Origin: Flavobacteriales bacterium
Lineage (GTDB): Bacteria; Bacteroidota; Bacteroidia; Flavobacteriales_G; JALEGO01
Reading direction: 5' to 3'
DNA: 47,819 bases
Assembly (NCBI GenBank): GCA_020631045.1
Contig: JAHDHZ010000001.1
Coordinates: 25,933 to 73,751, forward strand
Below the pieces are notes generated by a model. That model made no database searches, was not told the DNA's origin, and was given only the letters and a program-made list of their open reading frames with translations. Positions 27,382 through 38,651 of this stretch are shown piece after piece (position 1 is the first letter of the stretch; each line of letters opens with the position of its first letter). The position numbers and the translations under genes were made by a program.

Positions 27382-28110
27382 ATGAGTAGAAAAATAATTG
27401 CCGGCAATTGGAAGATGAACCTCTCCACCAATCAAGGCATTGAGCTAATTCAACAAATTGAAGCGGTTGATACAAAACATACAATTATTGCTTTTCCATC
27501 ATTTGTAAGCTTAAGTTCAATTGCAAAAGAAGCTCAGAAAATATCTGTAGGAGCTCAAAACTGCGGGGCATTCCAAAATGGAGCTTACACAGGAGAGGTT
27601 TCTACCCAGATGATTAAAGATGTCAAAGCTGAATATGTACTAGTAGGTCATTCTGAAAGAAGAGTAATCTTAAAAGAAAACAACACTGATTTTAAAGCTA
27701 AGATTCAACGTTGCCTAGAACAAAACTTAAAAGTTATTTTTTGCATTGGTGAAAATTTAGAGCAAAGACAAGCAGGCAATGAGCAATCAATTGTCAGTGA
27801 ACAACTCAGTCAAGTGCTCAGTAGCTTTAACACATCTGAGTTAAGCAACATCACCATTGCCTATGAACCTGTATGGGCCATCGGCACGGGAAAAAACGCA
27901 AACAATGATCAAATTGAATCTATGCACCGATTTATCAAGCAGTTTTGTAAAGAAAGCTTCAAGACACAGTTTAAGGTCTTGTATGGAGGGAGTTGCAAGC
28001 CCACAAATGCGCAAGAAATATTCTCATGCAAAAGTGTTGATGGCGTTTTGGTAGGAGGCGCCTCCCTAAAGGCTGATGCCTTTATCTCTATCATTCAAGC
28101 AGCAGGCTAA
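27382..28110 (+). CDS. tpiA: Triosephosphate isomerase
   Basis: A 242-residue TIM barrel, slightly shorter than the usual 250. GNWKMN carries the substrate-binding Lys11, VGHSERR holds the catalytic His, AYEPVWAIGTGK has the catalytic Glu and start of loop 6, and YGGSCKP plus VGGASLKADAF form the phosphate site. It interconverts dihydroxyacetone phosphate and glyceraldehyde-3-phosphate. Its stop abuts the prmA start with no gap, so the two are co-transcribed. Confidence 0.97.
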   Translation: MSRKIIAGNWKMNLSTNQGIELIQQIEAVDTKHTIIAFPSFVSLSSIAKEAQKISVGAQNCGAFQNGAYTGEVSTQMIKDVKAEYVLVGHSERRVILKENNTDFKAKIQRCLEQNLKVIFCIGENLEQRQAGNEQSIVSEQLSQVLSSFNTSELSNITIAYEPVWAIGTGKNANNDQIESMHRFIKQFCKESFKTQFKVLYGGSCKPTNAQEIFSCKSVDGVLVGGASLKADAFISIIQAAG

Positions 28111-28938
28111 ATGCATTATACAGAAATACATTTCAATCAAATTTCTGAACAAAGAAAACCCATTGTGATCGCTTTTTTAAGCGAGCTTCAGTTTGAAAGT
28201 TTTGAAGATCAAAATGGATTGTCTTGTTTTATACAATCAAATCTATTCAGTCAAAAAGCCCTAGATGAAGTTTGCTCAGAATACTCCATTGATGAATCTT
28301 ACCAAATCATAGAACACAAAAAAGAAAACTGGAATAAAAATTGGGAACGCAACATCACTCCCATCATGATCGATGACATATGTCAAGTCCGATGTGATTT
28401 TCATCAAAAAAATGAGCAGCTATCTTACGATATCGTAATCAATCCTAAAATGAGCTTTGGCACGGGCCACCACCAAACAACACGGCTCATGCTTCAAAAC
28501 ATGCTAAAGCTTGAGATTAAAGATGCAGAGGTATTAGATATGGGCTGTGGAACAGGAGTTCTAGGCATTCTTGCATTACTGAAACAAGCAAAACATGTAA
28601 ACTTTGTTGACATAGATGATTGGGCCATTGAAAACACAAAAGAAAACATCAAAAAAAATACTACAAATACTAACTACAAGACCTTTATTGGAGGAATTGA
28701 ACAATTAGATGGTGAAAAAAATTACGACCTGATTTTATCAAACATCACCAAAAACATTAATTTAGAATACATTGAGTCATATAGATCTATCACAAAGCAA
28801 AATGCTAAGTTGGTTTTGAGTGGATTTTACATAACTGATAAAAACGATGTGGTTGAAAAAGCTAAGGCAGCTAGATTTGATCTCATCGAAACAAAACAAG
28901 AAGATAATTGGATTGCCCTATGTTTTCAAAAGCAATAA
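28111..28938 (+). CDS. prmA: Ribosomal protein L11 methyltransferase
   Basis: A 275-residue class I SAM-dependent methyltransferase. The N-terminal 100 residues are the L11-binding domain. NPKMSFGTGHHQTTRLM is the PrmA hallmark, VLDMGCGTGVLGILAL is motif I, NFVDIDDWAIENTKEN is the acidic loop, and LILSNITKNI stands for motif IV. It trimethylates ribosomal protein L11. The tpiA-prmA order is common in Bacteroidota. The gene's last 19 bp overlap the signal peptide region of the downstream secreted protein. Confidence 0.95.
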   Translation: MHYTEIHFNQISEQRKPIVIAFLSELQFESFEDQNGLSCFIQSNLFSQKALDEVCSEYSIDESYQIIEHKKENWNKNWERNITPIMIDDICQVRCDFHQKNEQLSYDIVINPKMSFGTGHHQTTRLMLQNMLKLEIKDAEVLDMGCGTGVLGILALLKQAKHVNFVDIDDWAIENTKENIKKNTTNTNYKTFIGGIEQLDGEKNYDLILSNITKNINLEYIESYRSITKQNAKLVLSGFYITDKNDVVEKAKAARFDLIETKQEDNWIALCFQKQ

Positions 28939-31900
28939 AAATAAGTCTCATCCTGTGCTTGGTATCACTGGGCACCTCACATCTTCTGGCTCAAAAGCAA
29001 TTGCTGAGATTTAGTGAAGACACCACAGAATTTTTCAAAGAACTAAAGGGCTATGTAGAAAACGCTCCAAACCGTGAAGTTGAAGCAAAGAAATTAATGA
29101 AGTCATTCGAACCTGTATGGTTTGGAGGAGCCTTCACCGACCACCAAAAAAAGCTTGTCTTAAAAGTCTCAAACTTCATGCTGAAGAAAAAAATGTCTCC
29201 TTTTCCTTTTTATAAGAATTATATTCTTGCTCTCATTGGTTTTCATCACAGTCAACAATCTGAAGATAGTTTTGATGCTTGGGCCTTGAACCTTGAAAAA
29301 ATCATTAAATCAAATAACAAGAGAAAACTTCAGAGTTATCTTGAATTTAGTAGTTATTTCTTTGAAGAAAATGCTGTATTTAGATCAAATTCTGTAAAAT
29401 GGGTTGTTGAAGCATCTGAATATTTCTTTGAATATGCCGATGTACCATTTATTGTATTTCCCTCTTTGAATTTAAAATGCTATTCTAAAGGTGACAGTGC
29501 AATTATTCATCATACCTCAGGAGTTTATTTTCCGACCACAAATACCTTTAAAGGAAAAACTGGAGATCTTTACTGGCAAAGAGCCGGATTTTCTCAACAA
29601 GAAGTGCGTGCTGAATTATCATCTTATAAAATTGATGTCAAAAAATCTACCTTTAATGCCGATTCTGTATTATTTTATAACACTTTTTGGTTTAACAAAC
29701 CTCTCAAAGGAAAGGTCATCGAAAAAGTTTTGGCAAACGTCACTCCAGAAAATGCTTCTTACCCTGAATTTATATCTTATGATCAGCGTATAAAAATACC
29801 AAACCTGTTAGATGATGTTGATTTTGATGGTGGGTTTACACAAAAAGGATCAAAAATCATCGGCTCAGGAACTCCTGATCACAAAGCCGCTTTATTTGTT
29901 TACAGAGATAATGCTCCTTTCATCACATTAGAATCTGAAGCTTTTTTGATAAAACCAGATAAAATTGCCTCAGCAAAGACGCAAACTACAATCTATTTAG
30001 ATGAAGATTCTATCACTCACCCTGACTTAACACTAAATATCTCCTCAAAAGACAAGCACATTAGTTTAACGCGTGTGGGAGACGGCTTACAAAAAACTCC
30101 ATACACCAATACCTACCATAAAACAGAAATGTATTTTGATCAATTTTCTTGGACCATTGGTGCACCTACGGCCTATTTAGGCCCTATTGAAGGTTCTGAA
30201 ATCTCAAATATGCTGCTAGAGTCAAACGATTACTACCAACAAGCAAACTTTGATCGATTGATGGGTATTGATGCTAAAAGCCCGTTGTATGTCATCAATA
30301 GATGTTCTAGAGACAATGGCGATGTTGACGAATTGTCTTTAAAAGAAATTGCCAATTGCTGGGGCATTTCTAGAGCTCAAGCCAAAGGCATGCTCTTAAG
30401 ACTTTCTACCCTAGGATTTGTACAATACAATGTGAGTAACGATATGATTACTATCAACCAAAAACTTAGGCACTACATTTATTCGAATGCTGAAAAAGAA
30501 GATTATGACAACATTCAATTTAAGTCAATCACCAAAGAAGGTAAAATCAATGGAGAGCTCAACTTATTAAGCAACAACATTCGCCTAAGTGGAGTTGATA
30601 TGGTCTTATTAAGTGATTCTCAGAAGGTTTACGTGTACCCTAAAGACGGAAATCTATTGTTAAAAAAGAATCGAGATTTTGAATTCACAGGAGTTGTAAA
30701 CGCAGGAGCTTTTGAGTTATTCGGAAAAGAGTACAAATTCAATTATCAAAACTTTAAAATTGAAATGCCTCAAATAGATTCAGCGCACACTTACGTGACA
30801 GCCGACCAAACAGATGAAAATGGCCGACCAATTGAATCTAAAGTAAAATCAACCATAGAAGATTTAAAGGGAGAGCTTTTAATCGACAATCCAGGAAATA
30901 AGTCAGGAATCAAACGCTTATCAAGATACCCTGTCTTTAAAAGCAAGGAGCCTTCTTTTGTCTATTATGATGCAAAACAAATTTTGGGTGGAGTATACAA
31001 TAGAAGCAAGTTTTATTTTCAAGTTAACCCTTTTGAATACGACAGTTTAGATCAAATTACTGCAAAAAGCTTAAACTTTGAAGGCACTTTGGTTTCTTAC
31101 GATATTTTTCCTGACATTGATGAAAAGCTAGGCGTAATGAATGACCTCTCTCTAGGTTTTGTGCACAATACACCTAGCGCTGGTCTTGATTGTTATCAAG
31201 GTAAAGGAAATTACAATAATGAAATCATTTTAAGCAACCGAGGACTAAGAGGAGACGGAGAACTCAGTTATTTGACCTCAATTGTAGAATCAAATGATTT
31301 TATTTTTTATCCTGACTCTATGAATACAATGGCTCAAAACTACAGTATTGAAGAAGTCCCTAACGGCACAGAGTTTCCTCCTGTTTACGGGCAAGATGTG
31401 CAAATACATTGGCAGCCTTACAATGATTTCATGAATGCTTCTAATGGTAAAAAGCCTATTGCCATGTATGATGGATCTAAATTTGAAGGCACTTTAACCA
31501 ACAAGCCTACTGGCCTTGAAGGAGATGGGATGCTTGCTTTTCAAAAAGCAGAATTAGAATCAAACCTAATGAAGTTTAAGTTCATGGACTTCTCTGCAGA
31601 TACCGCTGAGTTTAGGTTGAAAAACGATATCGCCAATGAAGATGCTGTAGCTGCTGCAAGCGCCATTTCTTTTGCTACAGACAATGTTAAAGCACATGTT
31701 GATTTTAGAGAAATGAAAGGTGATTTTTGGTCAAATGATGGTGGTAGTTTTGTTGACTTTCCTAGAAATAAATACATCGCTTTTATGGATAAGTTCACTT
31801 GGTACATGGAAAGTGAAGACATTGAACTTTCTGCCAGCACAAAGGTTAAAGATGAGAATACTGGTGTGCAGTTAGAAGGTGCCGAATTTATCTCAGTTCA

Positions 31901-33410
31901 TGAAAATCAAGACTCCTTAAGGTTTTTTGCGGGTGGAGCGATTTATAACGTTGATAAAAATATCATAAATTGTACCCGAATCAAATACATCTATGTTGCA
32001 GATGGTCTGGTGCACCCTGATTCAGGAAAAATGACCATTAAGAGAAATGCCAAAATTGATCCGCTTGAAAACTCAACTATTATTGCCAACAGTACAAATA
32101 GATACCATGAAATTTTTGATGCTAAAACAGAAATTTTAGGTAGATACAACTACAGAGCCTCGGGAAAATATAACTACAAAGACGGTGAAGGTAAATTGCA
32201 AGAAGTATTTTTTGAAGAAATTAAAGTAGATTCTTCAAAACAAACTATTGCTAAAGGATTTGTTGAAGAATCTGCCAATTTCACTATTAGTCCTAGATAT
32301 GACTTTAAAGGTGAAGTAGAATTGTATGCTAGTAAAAAGAACCTAACCTTTGATGGAAATGGCAAACTTAAACACAATTGTGAGCTGATCCCAAAAGATT
32401 GGTTTCGTTTTAGAGGTGAGTTAAACCCTAAAGATGTGCTTATTCCAATTGATACAGTATTGAGAAACGAAAAAAAGAATCCTGTAGTAGCCAGTGTTAT
32501 GATGAAAAACGATTCTGCACATCTGTATCCAAGATTCACTTCTTTGCCCAAAACCTATTCAGATCATGAGCTGATCCATGCAAGTGGTTTTTTGAGATTT
32601 AATGCAGAGAAAAATGTTTTTGAAATTTCTAATCTTGCTAAAATGGAAGAGCTAAGCTTACCTGGAAATTACATCAACATGAATGCTGATGATTGTAACA
32701 TGTACGGCGAAGGCAGACTTAACTTAGGTGTAGATTTTGGACATATGAAGGTTGATCCAGTGGGCAATATCACTTACTATGCCCAAGCAGATAGTGGGAT
32801 CATTAAAACAATGATGAGTTCAGATTTCTTTTTCTCATCTGAGGCCTTAGACTATATGGCTAAAACTTTTCAAGCCAACACTGCTGGTGAGCCTATTGAT
32901 TTTGATACTGAAGTTTTCACACATGGATTGCAAGAATATGTGGGCAAGAAAAAATCTGATAAACTCATTACAGATCTAAGTTTACTCGGAAAATTCAAAA
33001 AATTCCCAAAAGAGCTTGAAAAATCGCTGTTTTTCACTGATGTTCAGATGAGATGGAATCAAGAAACTAGGTCTTATGTTTCAATTGGCCAACTTTCATT
33101 AAGCAACATTAAAAACAACGTTATCAACCAAAAACTTAACGGCAATCTTGAAATTGTCAAAAGACGAAGCGGAGACATCTTTACACTTTATTTAGAAGTA
33201 GATGCCTACACTTGGTATTACTTCTTTTACACAAGAGGAATTCTACAAGTATTGTCATCAGATACTGGATTTAATGATATTGTAAAAAATACCAAAAACG
33301 ATAAGCGAAAAACCAAATACGGAAAAGGTAAAACATTCTCTTACATGCTTTCTTCTCCTAAGAAGCAAAAAGACTTTGTAAGAAAAATGCAACAAATTCT
33401 TGAAGAGTAA
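28920..33410 (+). CDS. Large secreted beta-rich protein of unknown function, with winged-helix-like insert
   Basis: I cannot name this protein. ATG 28920 gives 1496 residues with a clear signal peptide (KAIKISLILCLVSLGTSHLLAQ), so it is exported; the in-frame TTG at 28908 is less likely. About the first 200 residues look helical. After that come many alternating strand motifs resembling OstA/AsmA-like or other repeated beta sheets, e.g. FEGTLTNKPTGLEGDG, GLRGDGELSYL and DGNGKLKHN. Residues about 468-520 hold a segment that looks like a winged helix (SLKEIANCWGISRAQAKGML). No sorting domain or membrane beta-barrel signature is visible. It overlaps prmA by 19 bp and the next gene by 11 bp, which puts it in one operon with an SPOR-domain envelope protein and an M48 protease. 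Confidence 0.85.
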   Translation: MFSKAIKISLILCLVSLGTSHLLAQKQLLRFSEDTTEFFKELKGYVENAPNREVEAKKLMKSFEPVWFGGAFTDHQKKLVLKVSNFMLKKKMSPFPFYKNYILALIGFHHSQQSEDSFDAWALNLEKIIKSNNKRKLQSYLEFSSYFFEENAVFRSNSVKWVVEASEYFFEYADVPFIVFPSLNLKCYSKGDSAIIHHTSGVYFPTTNTFKGKTGDLYWQRAGFSQQEVRAELSSYKIDVKKSTFNADSVLFYNTFWFNKPLKGKVIEKVLANVTPENASYPEFISYDQRIKIPNLLDDVDFDGGFTQKGSKIIGSGTPDHKAALFVYRDNAPFITLESEAFLIKPDKIASAKTQTTIYLDEDSITHPDLTLNISSKDKHISLTRVGDGLQKTPYTNTYHKTEMYFDQFSWTIGAPTAYLGPIEGSEISNMLLESNDYYQQANFDRLMGIDAKSPLYVINRCSRDNGDVDELSLKEIANCWGISRAQAKGMLLRLSTLGFVQYNVSNDMITINQKLRHYIYSNAEKEDYDNIQFKSITKEGKINGELNLLSNNIRLSGVDMVLLSDSQKVYVYPKDGNLLLKKNRDFEFTGVVNAGAFELFGKEYKFNYQNFKIEMPQIDSAHTYVTADQTDENGRPIESKVKSTIEDLKGELLIDNPGNKSGIKRLSRYPVFKSKEPSFVYYDAKQILGGVYNRSKFYFQVNPFEYDSLDQITAKSLNFEGTLVSYDIFPDIDEKLGVMNDLSLGFVHNTPSAGLDCYQGKGNYNNEIILSNRGLRGDGELSYLTSIVESNDFIFYPDSMNTMAQNYSIEEVPNGTEFPPVYGQDVQIHWQPYNDFMNASNGKKPIAMYDGSKFEGTLTNKPTGLEGDGMLAFQKAELESNLMKFKFMDFSADTAEFRLKNDIANEDAVAAASAISFATDNVKAHVDFREMKGDFWSNDGGSFVDFPRNKYIAFMDKFTWYMESEDIELSASTKVKDENTGVQLEGAEFISVHENQDSLRFFAGGAIYNVDKNIINCTRIKYIYVADGLVHPDSGKMTIKRNAKIDPLENSTIIANSTNRYHEIFDAKTEILGRYNYRASGKYNYKDGEGKLQEVFFEEIKVDSSKQTIAKGFVEESANFTISPRYDFKGEVELYASKKNLTFDGNGKLKHNCELIPKDWFRFRGELNPKDVLIPIDTVLRNEKKNPVVASVMMKNDSAHLYPRFTSLPKTYSDHELIHASGFLRFNAEKNVFEISNLAKMEELSLPGNYINMNADDCNMYGEGRLNLGVDFGHMKVDPVGNITYYAQADSGIIKTMMSSDFFFSSEALDYMAKTFQANTAGEPIDFDTEVFTHGLQEYVGKKKSDKLITDLSLLGKFKKFPKELEKSLFFTDVQMRWNQETRSYVSIGQLSLSNIKNNVINQKLNGNLEIVKRRSGDIFTLYLEVDAYTWYYFFYTRGILQVLSSDTGFNDIVKNTKNDKRKTKYGKGKTFSYMLSSPKKQKDFVRKMQQILEE

Positions 33411-36400
33411 GCATTACATAACATTGAGCTTTTTGCTCATTCAAAGTTTTTTGATAGCTCAAGAACAATTGAGTGAAGAAACACTTAAAAAGCAAGGTCT
33501 AGAGCTTTTTGAACAACAAAAATTCAAAGAAGCTCAAAGTCATTATTCTAAACTCTACAGTAACTATAATACCAACATGCATTACTGCTATATGCTTGGA
33601 GCTAGTATATTGTACGGCCAAGAAAACAAAGAAGATGCTTTAATTTACTTAGAAAGAGCATTAAACAATGGAAACACTGAGCCTGATTTATATTATTACC
33701 TTGCAAAAGCCTATCACATAAATTATAGATTTTCAAATGCCATCACTTATTATAAAAAATATCAATCAACAGGAAAAAAACGTAAACAATTACCTGTTTC
33801 TAGAGAGATAGAAATGTGTGAGAATGGCAAAACGCTACTTTCTAACATTACTGATATTGCCGTAAAAGAAAAGAAAAGCATTGCACTTGAAGACTTTCAT
33901 AAATCATATACACATGGCGGATTTATAGGCAAAGTACTTAAGGTTCCACCCTTATTTTTATCAAAAATTGATAAAAAGAAAAAATTTAATTCAGTGATGT
34001 ATACCAATCCATCATTTCAGCGTATTTTCTTTGCTTCATACGGAGAATCAGAAAATTCTGGAACTGATATTTACTATGTTGAAAAAAATAAAAAAGACGA
34101 ATTTTCAGCTCCTGTAAAACTACCCAGTACCATCAACACCATTTATGATGAAGATTACGCATTTTACAACACTGCCAACAATACTCTTTATTTTGCCTCT
34201 AAAGGCCACAACAGTATGGGTGGATACGACATCTTTAAGTCTACATACAATGAAGCTGACAACAGTTGGAGTACTCCACAAAACATTGACTTTGCAATCA
34301 ATTCTGCTGGAGATGATTTTCTGATGATTACCAATGAAGATGAGAGCGAGGCTATATTTGCCTCAACAAGAACATCAGAGGCTTCAAAAGTTCATGTATA
34401 TACTGTGGCTTTGACTCGAGCTGCTGTTGATGCAGTAGTTTTAAAGGGAACATACAATTCTGATTTTGACAAAAATGTAGTCATTAGAGTGAAAAATCCA
34501 TCTACAGGCGAAGAAATTGGCAATTTCAAACCTGATCAACAAACTGGAGAATATTCAATTGTGTTGCCCAACGGTGGGGCATTTGATTACTATTTAGAAT
34601 CAGAAAAAGCTGAGAGCCTACACAAAGGAACCATCAATGTTCCTTACCAGGAAGACTTAGTGAGTCTAAGTCAAGATTTAGATTTCAATCTAGTAGGAGA
34701 AGAAGAAACCTTTGCCATCAATAATAAATTTGATGAAAAGGCATCGATCAATGATGAAAATATTAAAGCTACACTACTCAAGCAAAAACAACATCTAGAG
34801 GTGAATTATGATCAAGTAATTGAAAGAGCACAGAATAGTAAGCCTATCCACACCGAAAGAGAAAAAGAGCTCACTCATAACCACTCTATGTTATTAGAAA
34901 AAGCCCAAGCTCTCTTATACAAAAGAGATTCTATCGCAGAGCTTATTGGTCAAAAAAATAAAGCTTTATCTGCATCAAACAACTTAGAGATCAAAGAGGT
35001 TTCAAATAAACTTGAATTACAAAAAAACACTATTGAGCAAACAAACAGTAAGATTGAAGCCTATATCGCTGCCATTCAGGCTAATTCTGAAGATCTAGAA
35101 CTAGTTGATTCACTCAATCAATTAAATGAACACCTTGAGAACGATGCTTCAGATTTAAAATTTAACAGCTTATATAAAGATGATATTAATGAGATAAATA
35201 CTGATATTGAAGCCCTAGAAAAACAATTAAGTCAATTGAACTCTGAAGAAAAAACTACAATACAACAAAAAATCAATGAAAAAAGAACTGAAAAATCTAA
35301 TTTGATTGAAAAGCAAAACATGATAGGTGAATTTATTAAGAGTGAAACTTCTGAAGTTACTGCTATTGAATCAGCTTTTAATGCAATAGAGAATGATCAA
35401 GCTCTCACTGTTTCAAACACACCAGAAAAAGAGACTCAACAACAGCCTAATGAAAACTACTTTAGTGACTATTCAAGCAAAGAGACTACGATAAGCCAAG
35501 AAGAGAAACCTACTTTTTATGAAGAATGGAATGATAAGATCAAGCAAGATTTGCAAACTAAACAAATTGCCTTTGAGCAAACAGAGAATGGTTCTTTTGA
35601 GCAAGAACAATTGGCCATTCAAATCAAAGACTTAGAGCAACAATTGGCTTTAAACAATCAATATCTAGAAGAGCTAAACACACCAGATCAACAAATAATT
35701 GAAGATGATCAGTCCAAAGAAAATAACCAACTAAACCTTTTATCAAAAGAAAATCAAGCCGATCAATTAGTGCTTAACGAACTTGATGAAGAAATTGAAA
35801 TTTTCACTCTAAAAGCAGATGTTGAGACCAACAAATCAACCAAAGAGCAATTAAGACTTACCATAGATAGCTTAAAAGAAAAACGAGCCATTAAAACCGG
35901 AAGCATCCAAGCAAGAGAAGAAATTTCAGAGCATATTAATCAATTGAATGTTCAAAACACTCAAGATTATGATCAACTCTTTCAATCTGATGTTTTAAAT
36001 GAAAAGCTTATGGCATTAAACCAAGAAATCTCATTGTTAAAAGAAGAAAAACAAGTGATTGATGAAACACTTTTGAGTACATCTAAAAAAGACAAGCCTA
36101 CATTTAAAAATAAATCATCTGAGCTTAAACATGCCATTGTCTTAGCTCAGAGTAAAAAAGAAGTGATTGATAGCTTAAAATCAATTATTGACACCCTAGA
36201 ACAAACTAAATTATCAGCTTTGCTCACTGATAATCAAAACAATACTTTAGAATTTAACGATTCTGAAATTGACTCTCTAAACGCTTATAGTTTATTTGAG
36301 CCTTTGAGTGCTAACCAACAAAAAATAAACTCCAACACAAAAAAAATCAAACAACTCAAAGAAGCTAAAGTATCATATAGCCAATCTCAGATTGATTCTG

Positions 36401-37848
36401 TCGATCAAATCATTGAAAGCTTAGAACAAGAATCAACTCAACTAGGTAAAAAAAGTGCTGCCCTTTTAAGTCAATCTAATTCAAGTGAGGCAAGCAAAGT
36501 CTTATCATACATTAAAAGTGAACAGTTTAATGAACTGAGTGAAGATGATGTCCAAGAGCCTATAACAGCCCCCCTAACTCAAGAAAATCCTATCGATTCT
36601 ACTACGTTAGCTTCAATTGTAGTCAATGAAGAAATTGAAGATACTTCTCAGCAAGAGCAAACAAACAATGACCCAACAAAAACTGAAGCTTCTTTTGCTG
36701 AAAACAAAGAAGAAGAAAAAACTCCTTCGAGTTCAAAAAAACTTTCTGTAGGATTCAAAATTTTAGACCGTTCACAATTGCAAAATGCAGGAAAAATCAC
36801 CATCAATCCAGAAATTCCTGAAGGCATTATTTATAAAGTTCAAGTAGGAGCCTTTAGAAATCCTATCCCAGAAGACATGTTCAAAGAGTTCTCCCCTATT
36901 TCTGGTCAAACTACCAGTTCAGGGCTAACTCGATACCAAGCTGGAATTTTCTTAAGATTTAAAAATGCGAGTACTGCAAAAGATCAAATTCGCTCTATGG
37001 GCTACTCAGATGCCTTTGTAGTAGCTTATCAAAATGGTAAGCGTATTTCAATTAGCAAGGCTAGAGCTAATTCTGATCAGCAAATTGCAAATCAAAATCA
37101 AAGGGTAGAAACCAAGCCAACTCAAGAAACTGCCTCTAGTGTTCAAGAGCCAATTTCAAATCAAAAATTACAGTCAAACCAAGAAATCTCTTCTTTGATT
37201 GAAGATGTGAAAAAAATTGAGCAAGCCTTCTTGACTGTTCAGGTAGGAGCTTTCAGAGGTAAGTCAAATGATAAAAAATTGAACAGCATCTCTCCACTAT
37301 ATGCTGAATTTAAATCTGATGGATGGATTAAGTACAATACTGGCGTATTTTTCTCTTTAGATCAAGCCATTCAAAGAAAAAAGCAAATCATCAAAGAATA
37401 TGGTATTGAAGACGCTTTTGTTACAGCTTATCTTGACGGACAAAGAATTCGAGTTACTGAAGCATTAGATCTGATTAGTGAAAGCCCTTTAGCTCCACAA
37501 GAAGACTATACATCTACAACTAATAGCGATGTTCAACCAAACAGTAGTGCGCCTGAAAACGATAGCAATGACGAATCTACTCAATCGTTGTTAGGCACTA
37601 CATTTTCAATTTTATTATTTGAAAATAAAACCGCACTAGAAGTTGAAGATTTTGACCTACTCAATCAACTCAATAGTCAAGGTTATGAAATTACAGCAGA
37701 AAAAAATGAAAACGGTTCTTATACTTATTCATTAGGAAACTTTACGCAAAGAAGCAATGCTGAAAATAAATTAAATGAAATACAAACCAAATACTCAATT
37801 CAAGCAAAAATTATAACTTTAAACAACGGTTTTACCATAAACGAATAA
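33400..37848 (+). CDS. TPR - PD40 propeller - coiled-coil - SPOR envelope protein
   Basis: A 1482-residue exported protein. The start is TTG at 33400 (overlapping the previous gene by 11 bp), giving the signal peptide SKHYITLSFLLIQSFLIAQ; no ATG fits. Domains: TPR-like repeats at about 20-130; a PD40 beta-propeller at about 195-345 (IFFASYGES, LYFASKGHNSMGGYDIF); a carboxypeptidase-regulatory-like beta domain at about 345-430; a long Gln/Glu/Lys-rich coiled coil at about 457-1035; SPOR domains at about 1140-1222 (YKVQVGAFRN) and 1275-1355 (TVQVGAFRG); and a degenerate third at about 1400-1482. SPOR domains bind glycan strands stripped of peptides. The front half resembles T9SS PorE, which has an OmpA domain in place of SPOR. 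A peptidoglycan-tethered envelope scaffold is the inferred role. Confidence 0.88.
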   Translation: MKSKHYITLSFLLIQSFLIAQEQLSEETLKKQGLELFEQQKFKEAQSHYSKLYSNYNTNMHYCYMLGASILYGQENKEDALIYLERALNNGNTEPDLYYYLAKAYHINYRFSNAITYYKKYQSTGKKRKQLPVSREIEMCENGKTLLSNITDIAVKEKKSIALEDFHKSYTHGGFIGKVLKVPPLFLSKIDKKKKFNSVMYTNPSFQRIFFASYGESENSGTDIYYVEKNKKDEFSAPVKLPSTINTIYDEDYAFYNTANNTLYFASKGHNSMGGYDIFKSTYNEADNSWSTPQNIDFAINSAGDDFLMITNEDESEAIFASTRTSEASKVHVYTVALTRAAVDAVVLKGTYNSDFDKNVVIRVKNPSTGEEIGNFKPDQQTGEYSIVLPNGGAFDYYLESEKAESLHKGTINVPYQEDLVSLSQDLDFNLVGEEETFAINNKFDEKASINDENIKATLLKQKQHLEVNYDQVIERAQNSKPIHTEREKELTHNHSMLLEKAQALLYKRDSIAELIGQKNKALSASNNLEIKEVSNKLELQKNTIEQTNSKIEAYIAAIQANSEDLELVDSLNQLNEHLENDASDLKFNSLYKDDINEINTDIEALEKQLSQLNSEEKTTIQQKINEKRTEKSNLIEKQNMIGEFIKSETSEVTAIESAFNAIENDQALTVSNTPEKETQQQPNENYFSDYSSKETTISQEEKPTFYEEWNDKIKQDLQTKQIAFEQTENGSFEQEQLAIQIKDLEQQLALNNQYLEELNTPDQQIIEDDQSKENNQLNLLSKENQADQLVLNELDEEIEIFTLKADVETNKSTKEQLRLTIDSLKEKRAIKTGSIQAREEISEHINQLNVQNTQDYDQLFQSDVLNEKLMALNQEISLLKEEKQVIDETLLSTSKKDKPTFKNKSSELKHAIVLAQSKKEVIDSLKSIIDTLEQTKLSALLTDNQNNTLEFNDSEIDSLNAYSLFEPLSANQQKINSNTKKIKQLKEAKVSYSQSQIDSVDQIIESLEQESTQLGKKSAALLSQSNSSEASKVLSYIKSEQFNELSEDDVQEPITAPLTQENPIDSTTLASIVVNEEIEDTSQQEQTNNDPTKTEASFAENKEEEKTPSSSKKLSVGFKILDRSQLQNAGKITINPEIPEGIIYKVQVGAFRNPIPEDMFKEFSPISGQTTSSGLTRYQAGIFLRFKNASTAKDQIRSMGYSDAFVVAYQNGKRISISKARANSDQQIANQNQRVETKPTQETASSVQEPISNQKLQSNQEISSLIEDVKKIEQAFLTVQVGAFRGKSNDKKLNSISPLYAEFKSDGWIKYNTGVFFSLDQAIQRKKQIIKEYGIEDAFVTAYLDGQRIRVTEALDLISESPLAPQEDYTSTTNSDVQPNSSAPENDSNDESTQSLLGTTFSILLFENKTALEVEDFDLLNQLNSQGYEITAEKNENGSYTYSLGNFTQRSNAENKLNEIQTKYSIQAKIITLNNGFTINE

Positions 37849-37850
37849 CA

Positions 37851-38651
37851 ATGAAAAAACTTACAGGTATATTCTTATTCTGCATTTTTATACTTTCATG
37901 CCATAAGGTACCCATTACAGGAAGAAGACAACTTAAACTATTGCCTGAAAGTCAATTGATTGGCATGAGCTTGACAAACTATGATCAATTTAAGAGTCAA
38001 AATAAGGTCATTCCTAGTTCAGATCCTCAGGCTAAAAGAGTCATCAACATCTGTAAAAAAATTCAGGCAGCAGTCGTCAAATTTATGCATGACGAGCATA
38101 TGTCAAGTAAAATAAAAGGATTTCAATGGGAATTTAACGTAGTTGAAGACCCTGCGGTAAATGCATGGTGTATGCCAGGCGGAAAAGTAGTCGTATACAC
38201 TGGACTCATTCCTGTAGCGCAAACAGATGAAGGGCTAGCCACCGTAATTGGCCATGAAGTTGCTCATGCTATTGCAAAGCATGGTAATGAGCGAATGAGT
38301 CAAGCTATGGCCATCAATGGTGTTGGAATGGCTCTGAGCGTTGCCGCGGCACAAAAACCCACTGTAATGAACAACATATTTATGCAAAGTTATGGCCTGG
38401 CTTCTAACTTGGGGTCTTTAAAATTCTCTAGAACTCATGAGACTGAAGCTGATAAAATGGGTTTAATTTTTATGTCAATCGCTGGGTATGATCCTTCTAA
38501 GTCTATTGATTTTTGGAAGAGAATGGCTCAAGCAGGCGGCGGCGGCGCACCTGAGTTTTTAAGTACACACCCCTCTTCTGAAACAAGAATAAAAGACATT
38601 AAAGCATTTTTACCAGAAGCCATGAATTATTATCGCGCTTCGAAAAGATAA
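37851..38651 (+). CDS. M48 family metalloprotease, lipoprotein
   Basis: A 266-residue protein. The signal peptide ends in a lipobox (FILSC, Cys at about 17), so it is an outer-membrane or periplasmic lipoprotein. The zinc site is HEVAH at 135-139 (H135, H139) with E197 in THETEAD as third ligand. Other Oma1/LoiP-like features are AWCMPGGKVVVYTGL and the late FLSTHPSSETRI. Such proteases degrade or process envelope proteins; in E. coli BepA and LoiP help outer-membrane protein assembly. It follows the SPOR protein gene by 2 bp, so it is part of the same operon. Confidence 0.93.
   Translation: MKKLTGIFLFCIFILSCHKVPITGRRQLKLLPESQLIGMSLTNYDQFKSQNKVIPSSDPQAKRVINICKKIQAAVVKFMHDEHMSSKIKGFQWEFNVVEDPAVNAWCMPGGKVVVYTGLIPVAQTDEGLATVIGHEVAHAIAKHGNERMSQAMAINGVGMALSVAAAQKPTVMNNIFMQSYGLASNLGSLKFSRTHETEADKMGLIFMSIAGYDPSKSIDFWKRMAQAGGGGAPEFLSTHPSSETRIKDIKAFLPEAMNYYRASKR

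Follow-up and report, generated by a model that had tools for sequence, protein, structure and literature searches.

The window analysed here, a stretch of 47,819 nucleotides from a Flavobacteriales bacterium, carries a long gene, labelled BIG, within a block of neighbours that includes a SPOR-domain partner (Table 1). The open reading frame of BIG extends from an ATG at 28920 to a stop codon at 33410 on the plus strand and encodes 1496 amino acids, in agreement with the preliminary description; a TTG at 28908 is an alternative start, and the N-terminal sequence of the protein is MFSKAIKISLILCLVSLGTSHLLAQ. Sequence comparison confirmed BIG as a real gene and no chance reading frame, because full-length homologues are present in most of the genomes sampled across the class. 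The gene order tpiA–prmA–BIG–(plsY)–partner–clpS/M48 is conserved. Among loci with enough DNA, prmA was located at most 600 bp upstream of BIG in 51 of 75, and on the downstream side the SPOR/PorE-like partner came next in 32 and plsY in 28 of the 66 testable loci, with clpS and the M48 gene often following; pssA adjoins BIG in one of the 66. The linkage to plsY is weak, because the neighbours of BIG are mixed housekeeping genes. In the window the 3' end of BIG overlaps the partner gene, which starts with TTG, by 11 bp (33400–33410), as had been described, and the M48 gene starts after a 2-bp gap from the end of the partner gene. The M48 metalloprotease gene (37851–38651) is also kept beside the block in many relatives.

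Table 1. Genes of the BIG locus and predicted parts of the BIG protein (positions within the window; aa, residues of BIG).
Feature	Position	Strand	Basis
tpiA, conserved upstream neighbour	27382..28110	+	Pfam; synteny
prmA, directly upstream of BIG, 19-bp overlap	28111..28938	+	Pfam; synteny
BIG, exported protein, new family	28920..33410	+	ORF; full-length homologues across the class
Sec signal peptide, aa 1-24, without lipobox	28920..28991	+	Sequence; homologue N-termini
N-terminal six-helix domain, aa 35-150	29022..29369	+	AlphaFold2 model m61e9a2edbadf
First beta-groove-like region, aa 151-440	29370..30239	+	AlphaFold2 model; Foldseek; strand analysis
Winged-helix domain, aa 441-525, interrupting the beta region	30240..30494	+	Model; Foldseek; sub-threshold Pfam
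Second, longer beta-groove-like region, aa 526-1300	30495..32819	+	Both models; strand analysis
C-terminal part: helices aa 1307-1356, further strands, terminal helix aa 1480-1495	32820..33407	+	Model
Partner: signal peptide, TPR, PorE-like beta-propeller region, coiled coil, SPOR domains	33400..37848	+	ORF, Pfam, NCBIfam
M48 metalloprotease, BepA/LoiP-like, downstream neighbour	37851..38651	+	Pfam, NCBIfam; synteny

The partner resembles the PorE/CHU_0125 family in its beta-propeller region, as recognised by the NCBIfam profile, but it bears SPOR domains where that family has OmpA, and its score is far under the family cut-off. Its coiled coil is long, and relatives of the partner reach about 2,250 amino acids. 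The partner was found in 8 of 12 BIG-positive genomes and in none of 18 BIG-less ones (E up to 1e-30; Fisher p = 8e-5, uncorrected for shared ancestry), and once it was located about 155 kb away from BIG. The partner is not obligatory for BIG, since it is adjacent in 32 of the 66 loci. Nine prmA loci of genomes devoid of BIG were read: three show prmA–clpS (L175, L176 and L180), one shows prmA–plsY–M48 (L181), and the rest have different neighbours. The layouts of these four loci are consistent with a loss of BIG and the partner from the conserved block.

Homologues of BIG, usually full length and 30–50% identical, were found in 56 of 60 relatives and in 245 of 296 genomes sampled across Bacteroidia (136 of 165 genera), mostly in a single copy, and the mean pairwise identity among 73 of them is about 42%. 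The family is an old one. At least 462 relatives were returned when 84,980 species genomes were scanned. All but one of the best 80 carry Bacteroidota titles, the exception being labelled only as an uncultured bacterium; most are metagenome assemblies belonging to Flavobacteriales, Bacteroidales or Bacteroidota without further placement. In a phylum-level sample, which fell on very complete genomes, BIG was present in 11 of 297, and the difference between this count and that for the class indicates that the apparent rarity of BIG depends on the families sampled. Although most of the Bacteroidia families sampled carry the gene, several with many sampled genomes (f22–f25 and f30) lack it, and there it is, to judge from genome content, dispensable. 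No homologue was found in the plasmid collection. In one related genome a second match, short and divergent (29% identity), covers the last 125 residues of BIG at the C-terminus (G003:C451:3750-4112).

The preliminary description had proposed an exported protein, and the homologues agree with this: among the 69 with a usable start, a strong N-terminal hydrophobic stretch is present in 66 and a small residue–Q site in 65, while a lipobox occurs in none. A small residue followed by Q is typical of signal-peptide cleavage. The N-termini are therefore of the signal-peptide type, with no inner-membrane transmembrane anchor, and no conserved internal transmembrane segment was recognised from the sequences of the homologues. 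A soluble periplasmic location would be the simplest reading for BIG.

No match above threshold was obtained for BIG in Pfam, NCBIfam, PHROG or PDB by sequence and profile searches, on which grounds membership of a described family is rejected, and no paper naming the family was found in the literature search. The sole Pfam match, below threshold, is to the winged helix HTH_IclR (E 0.013, aa 470–503). The Pfam scans returned no domain of the AsmA or TamB type, no Chorein_N or related motif and, at E up to 1, no Lpt domain. The repeated G-x-G-x-L turns described earlier were recovered, five GxGxL motifs being observed against 0.47 expected (0 of 5000 shuffles reached five); the motifs are few, the enrichment is modest, and they lie mainly in the C-terminal half. 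Strong sequence repeats can be rejected, as the best internal pair by profile comparison (aa ~752–802 versus ~846–901) reached a probability of about 37%. The absence of a recognisable family, as originally stated, was thereby upheld, and neither a described family nor an ordinary adhesin fold emerged from the family and structure searches.

Structure prediction was carried out with AlphaFold2 from alignments of 71 and 72 homologous sequences (A2 and A3). The model of aa 25–960 (m61e9a2edbadf) had a pLDDT of 91.6 and a pTM of 0.73, that of aa 600–1496 a pLDDT of 90.2 and a pTM of 0.60, and the strand positions of the two agree in the overlap (Jaccard 0.99). Combined, the models contain about 96 strands, six N-terminal helices, a helix-rich insert at aa 441–525 and three helices at aa 1307–1356. 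Along the strands hydrophobicity alternates (z = 5.0, family average), so that one face is 7% charged and rich in F, L, I and V, and the other is 31% charged. When the model of aa 600–1496 was compared with the PDB by Foldseek, LptA (2r19 and 2r1a) and LptC (4b54) were the best local matches, with probabilities up to 1.00, TM scores (target) of 0.53–0.68 at about 3 Angstrom over nearly the whole length of LptA or LptC, and E-values of only ~0.02–0.3; the N-terminal model matched LptC (6mit). Many LptD entries rank high but behind LptA and LptC, with long alignments and TM of about 0.1–0.2. ApoB100 and LPD-3, which are lipid carriers, were also in the PDB list. In the library of viral structures, chorein (VPS13-type) proteins of mimivirus and tupanvirus ranked second and third (E 1.2e-5 and 1.9e-4), behind a phage tail fibre (probability 0.47, TM 0.09). 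The insert at aa 441–525 of the predicted model matches MarR-type winged helices with probabilities of 0.99–1.00, and weak, sub-threshold winged-helix Pfam matches occur in several homologues. The signal peptide and the near-neutral charge of this domain (mean net charge +0.2) speak against a cytoplasmic DNA-binding regulator. The preliminary description had missed both the embedded winged helix and the domain of N-terminal helices. Its suggestion of a repeated beta groove, as in AsmA/TamB or Lpt-type proteins, is supported by the confident models and by two structure libraries, but not by a profile relationship to OstA or LptD, and the local E-values are those given above.

The comparison with known lipid carriers places BIG closest to LptA or to a bridge-like carrier, although by sequence it is a member of neither family. 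With LptA it shares a cleavable signal peptide without a transmembrane anchor, but it is about ten times longer, has additional helical and winged-helix domains, and gives no sequence-profile match. Profile–profile comparison with the OstA and LptD of relatives gave probabilities of 1.5% or less, and homology to either is rejected on this basis. The concept of a long periplasmic beta groove is common to BIG and the AsmA-like proteins (TamB, YhdP and YdbH), and TamB is of similar size in these genomes (about 1,450–1,500 amino acids). However, BIG lacks an AsmA/TamB domain and has a cleavable signal peptide, whereas AsmA-like proteins have an inner-membrane anchor (PMC12045153). The bridge-like VPS13/ATG2 and LPD-3 proteins are represented among the structural matches by viral chorein and LPD-3, but BIG has no Chorein_N and the global alignments are weak and partial. 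OstA (549-aa frame), LptD (882) and TamB (1449) are encoded separately in the same genome as BIG, and OstA is present in 57 of the 60 related genomes. A replacement of Lpt or TamB by BIG can be rejected, as all of them coexist, and the job is not obviously vacant for BIG, because the organism already has these three proteins. Its own OstA/LptA-like gene (L182:2126-3667, G000 contig C33) lies on the same contig, upstream of the window and about 34 kb from BIG.

Taken as a whole, BIG may represent a new family of soluble periplasmic lipid-groove, bridge-like proteins that dock through dedicated domains, pass lipids between the membranes and have a SPOR tie in many lineages; we give this reading about even odds. 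The beta region of about 1,300 residues would form a long groove, hydrophobic on its inside, with the architecture of LptA and LptC extended several-fold within one chain. We infer a continuous groove, which would most likely shield lipid acyl chains and pass them all or part of the way between the inner membrane and the outer one, the candidate cargo being phospholipid, LPS or an aminolipid of Bacteroidota (sulfonolipid or ornithine lipid). The domain of six N-terminal helices and the winged-helix insert would probably serve to dock membrane-bound partners and not to bind DNA, and the SPOR partner may tie the assembly to peptidoglycan in about half of the loci. The lipid groove, in which we place moderate confidence, is backed by the Lpt-type and viral chorein matches, the alternating strand faces, conservation across the class mostly in a single copy, LptA-like export and the adjacency of plsY (28 of 66 loci).

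A different role, in the assembly of outer-membrane proteins, appears unlikely; BIG would then act as a chaperone or scaffold in the periplasm, its groove holding unfolded beta-strands while the M48 protease and the SPOR partner act in quality control. The long hydrophobic strand faces could hold peptide, and the conserved neighbour is a BepA-like M48 protease, but the closest solved folds are the lipid carriers LptA, LptC and LptD, and the M48 linkage proves little, because clpS, tpiA and prmA are conserved neighbours too. Whether the cargo is lipid or protein is also asked of TamB (PMC12045153). F. johnsoniae requires TamL and TamB, yet TamL depletion alters lipids little (PMC12045153). Given its elongated beta structure, the neighbouring SPOR protein and the co-occurrence described above, BIG could also be a structural spacer or filament of stacked beta-sandwiches between the outer membrane and peptidoglycan that carries nothing, which seems rather improbable, since the partner is adjacent in only about half of the loci and a spacer would need neither the uniform hydrophobic face nor the Lpt-type matches. 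That BIG is a divergent LptA/OstA paralogue, serving as an extra or longer LPS bridge in the standard Lpt pathway, is very doubtful: fold and signal peptide resemble LptA, but there is no sequence relationship to OstA, which is present in nearly all the same genomes and lies outside the operon. That BIG is secreted to the surface, for example as a repeat adhesin, is disfavoured as the most improbable reading of all and was rejected, for although BIG is long, beta-rich and exported, it has no T9SS C-terminal domain, adhesin family or adhesin repeats (Pfam, NCBIfam), its match to a viral tail fibre has a TM of 0.09, and its mostly single-copy occurrence, its mean identity and its operon with core genes are unlike adhesins.

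The lipid-groove reading leads to a more tentative proposal, that Bacteroidia possess an unrecognised envelope lipid conduit: a soluble giant groove in a single chain, showing no sequence relationship to Lpt or AsmA proteins, with extracytoplasmic winged-helix docking and a SPOR anchor, that would carry lipids from membrane to membrane beside Lpt and TamB. Finding a winged helix in a protein that is exported is already unusual. The phylum Bacteroidota is abundant, its members have an unusual envelope with sulfonolipids and ornithine lipids, and to our knowledge the lipid route to their outer membrane is largely unsettled. The absence of BIG from several heavily sampled families may explain why it has been overlooked. 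The predicted lipid groove of this unnamed family of proteins of some 1,500 residues, together with its class-wide, mostly single-copy occurrence, makes BIG a direct candidate for outer-membrane lipid delivery.
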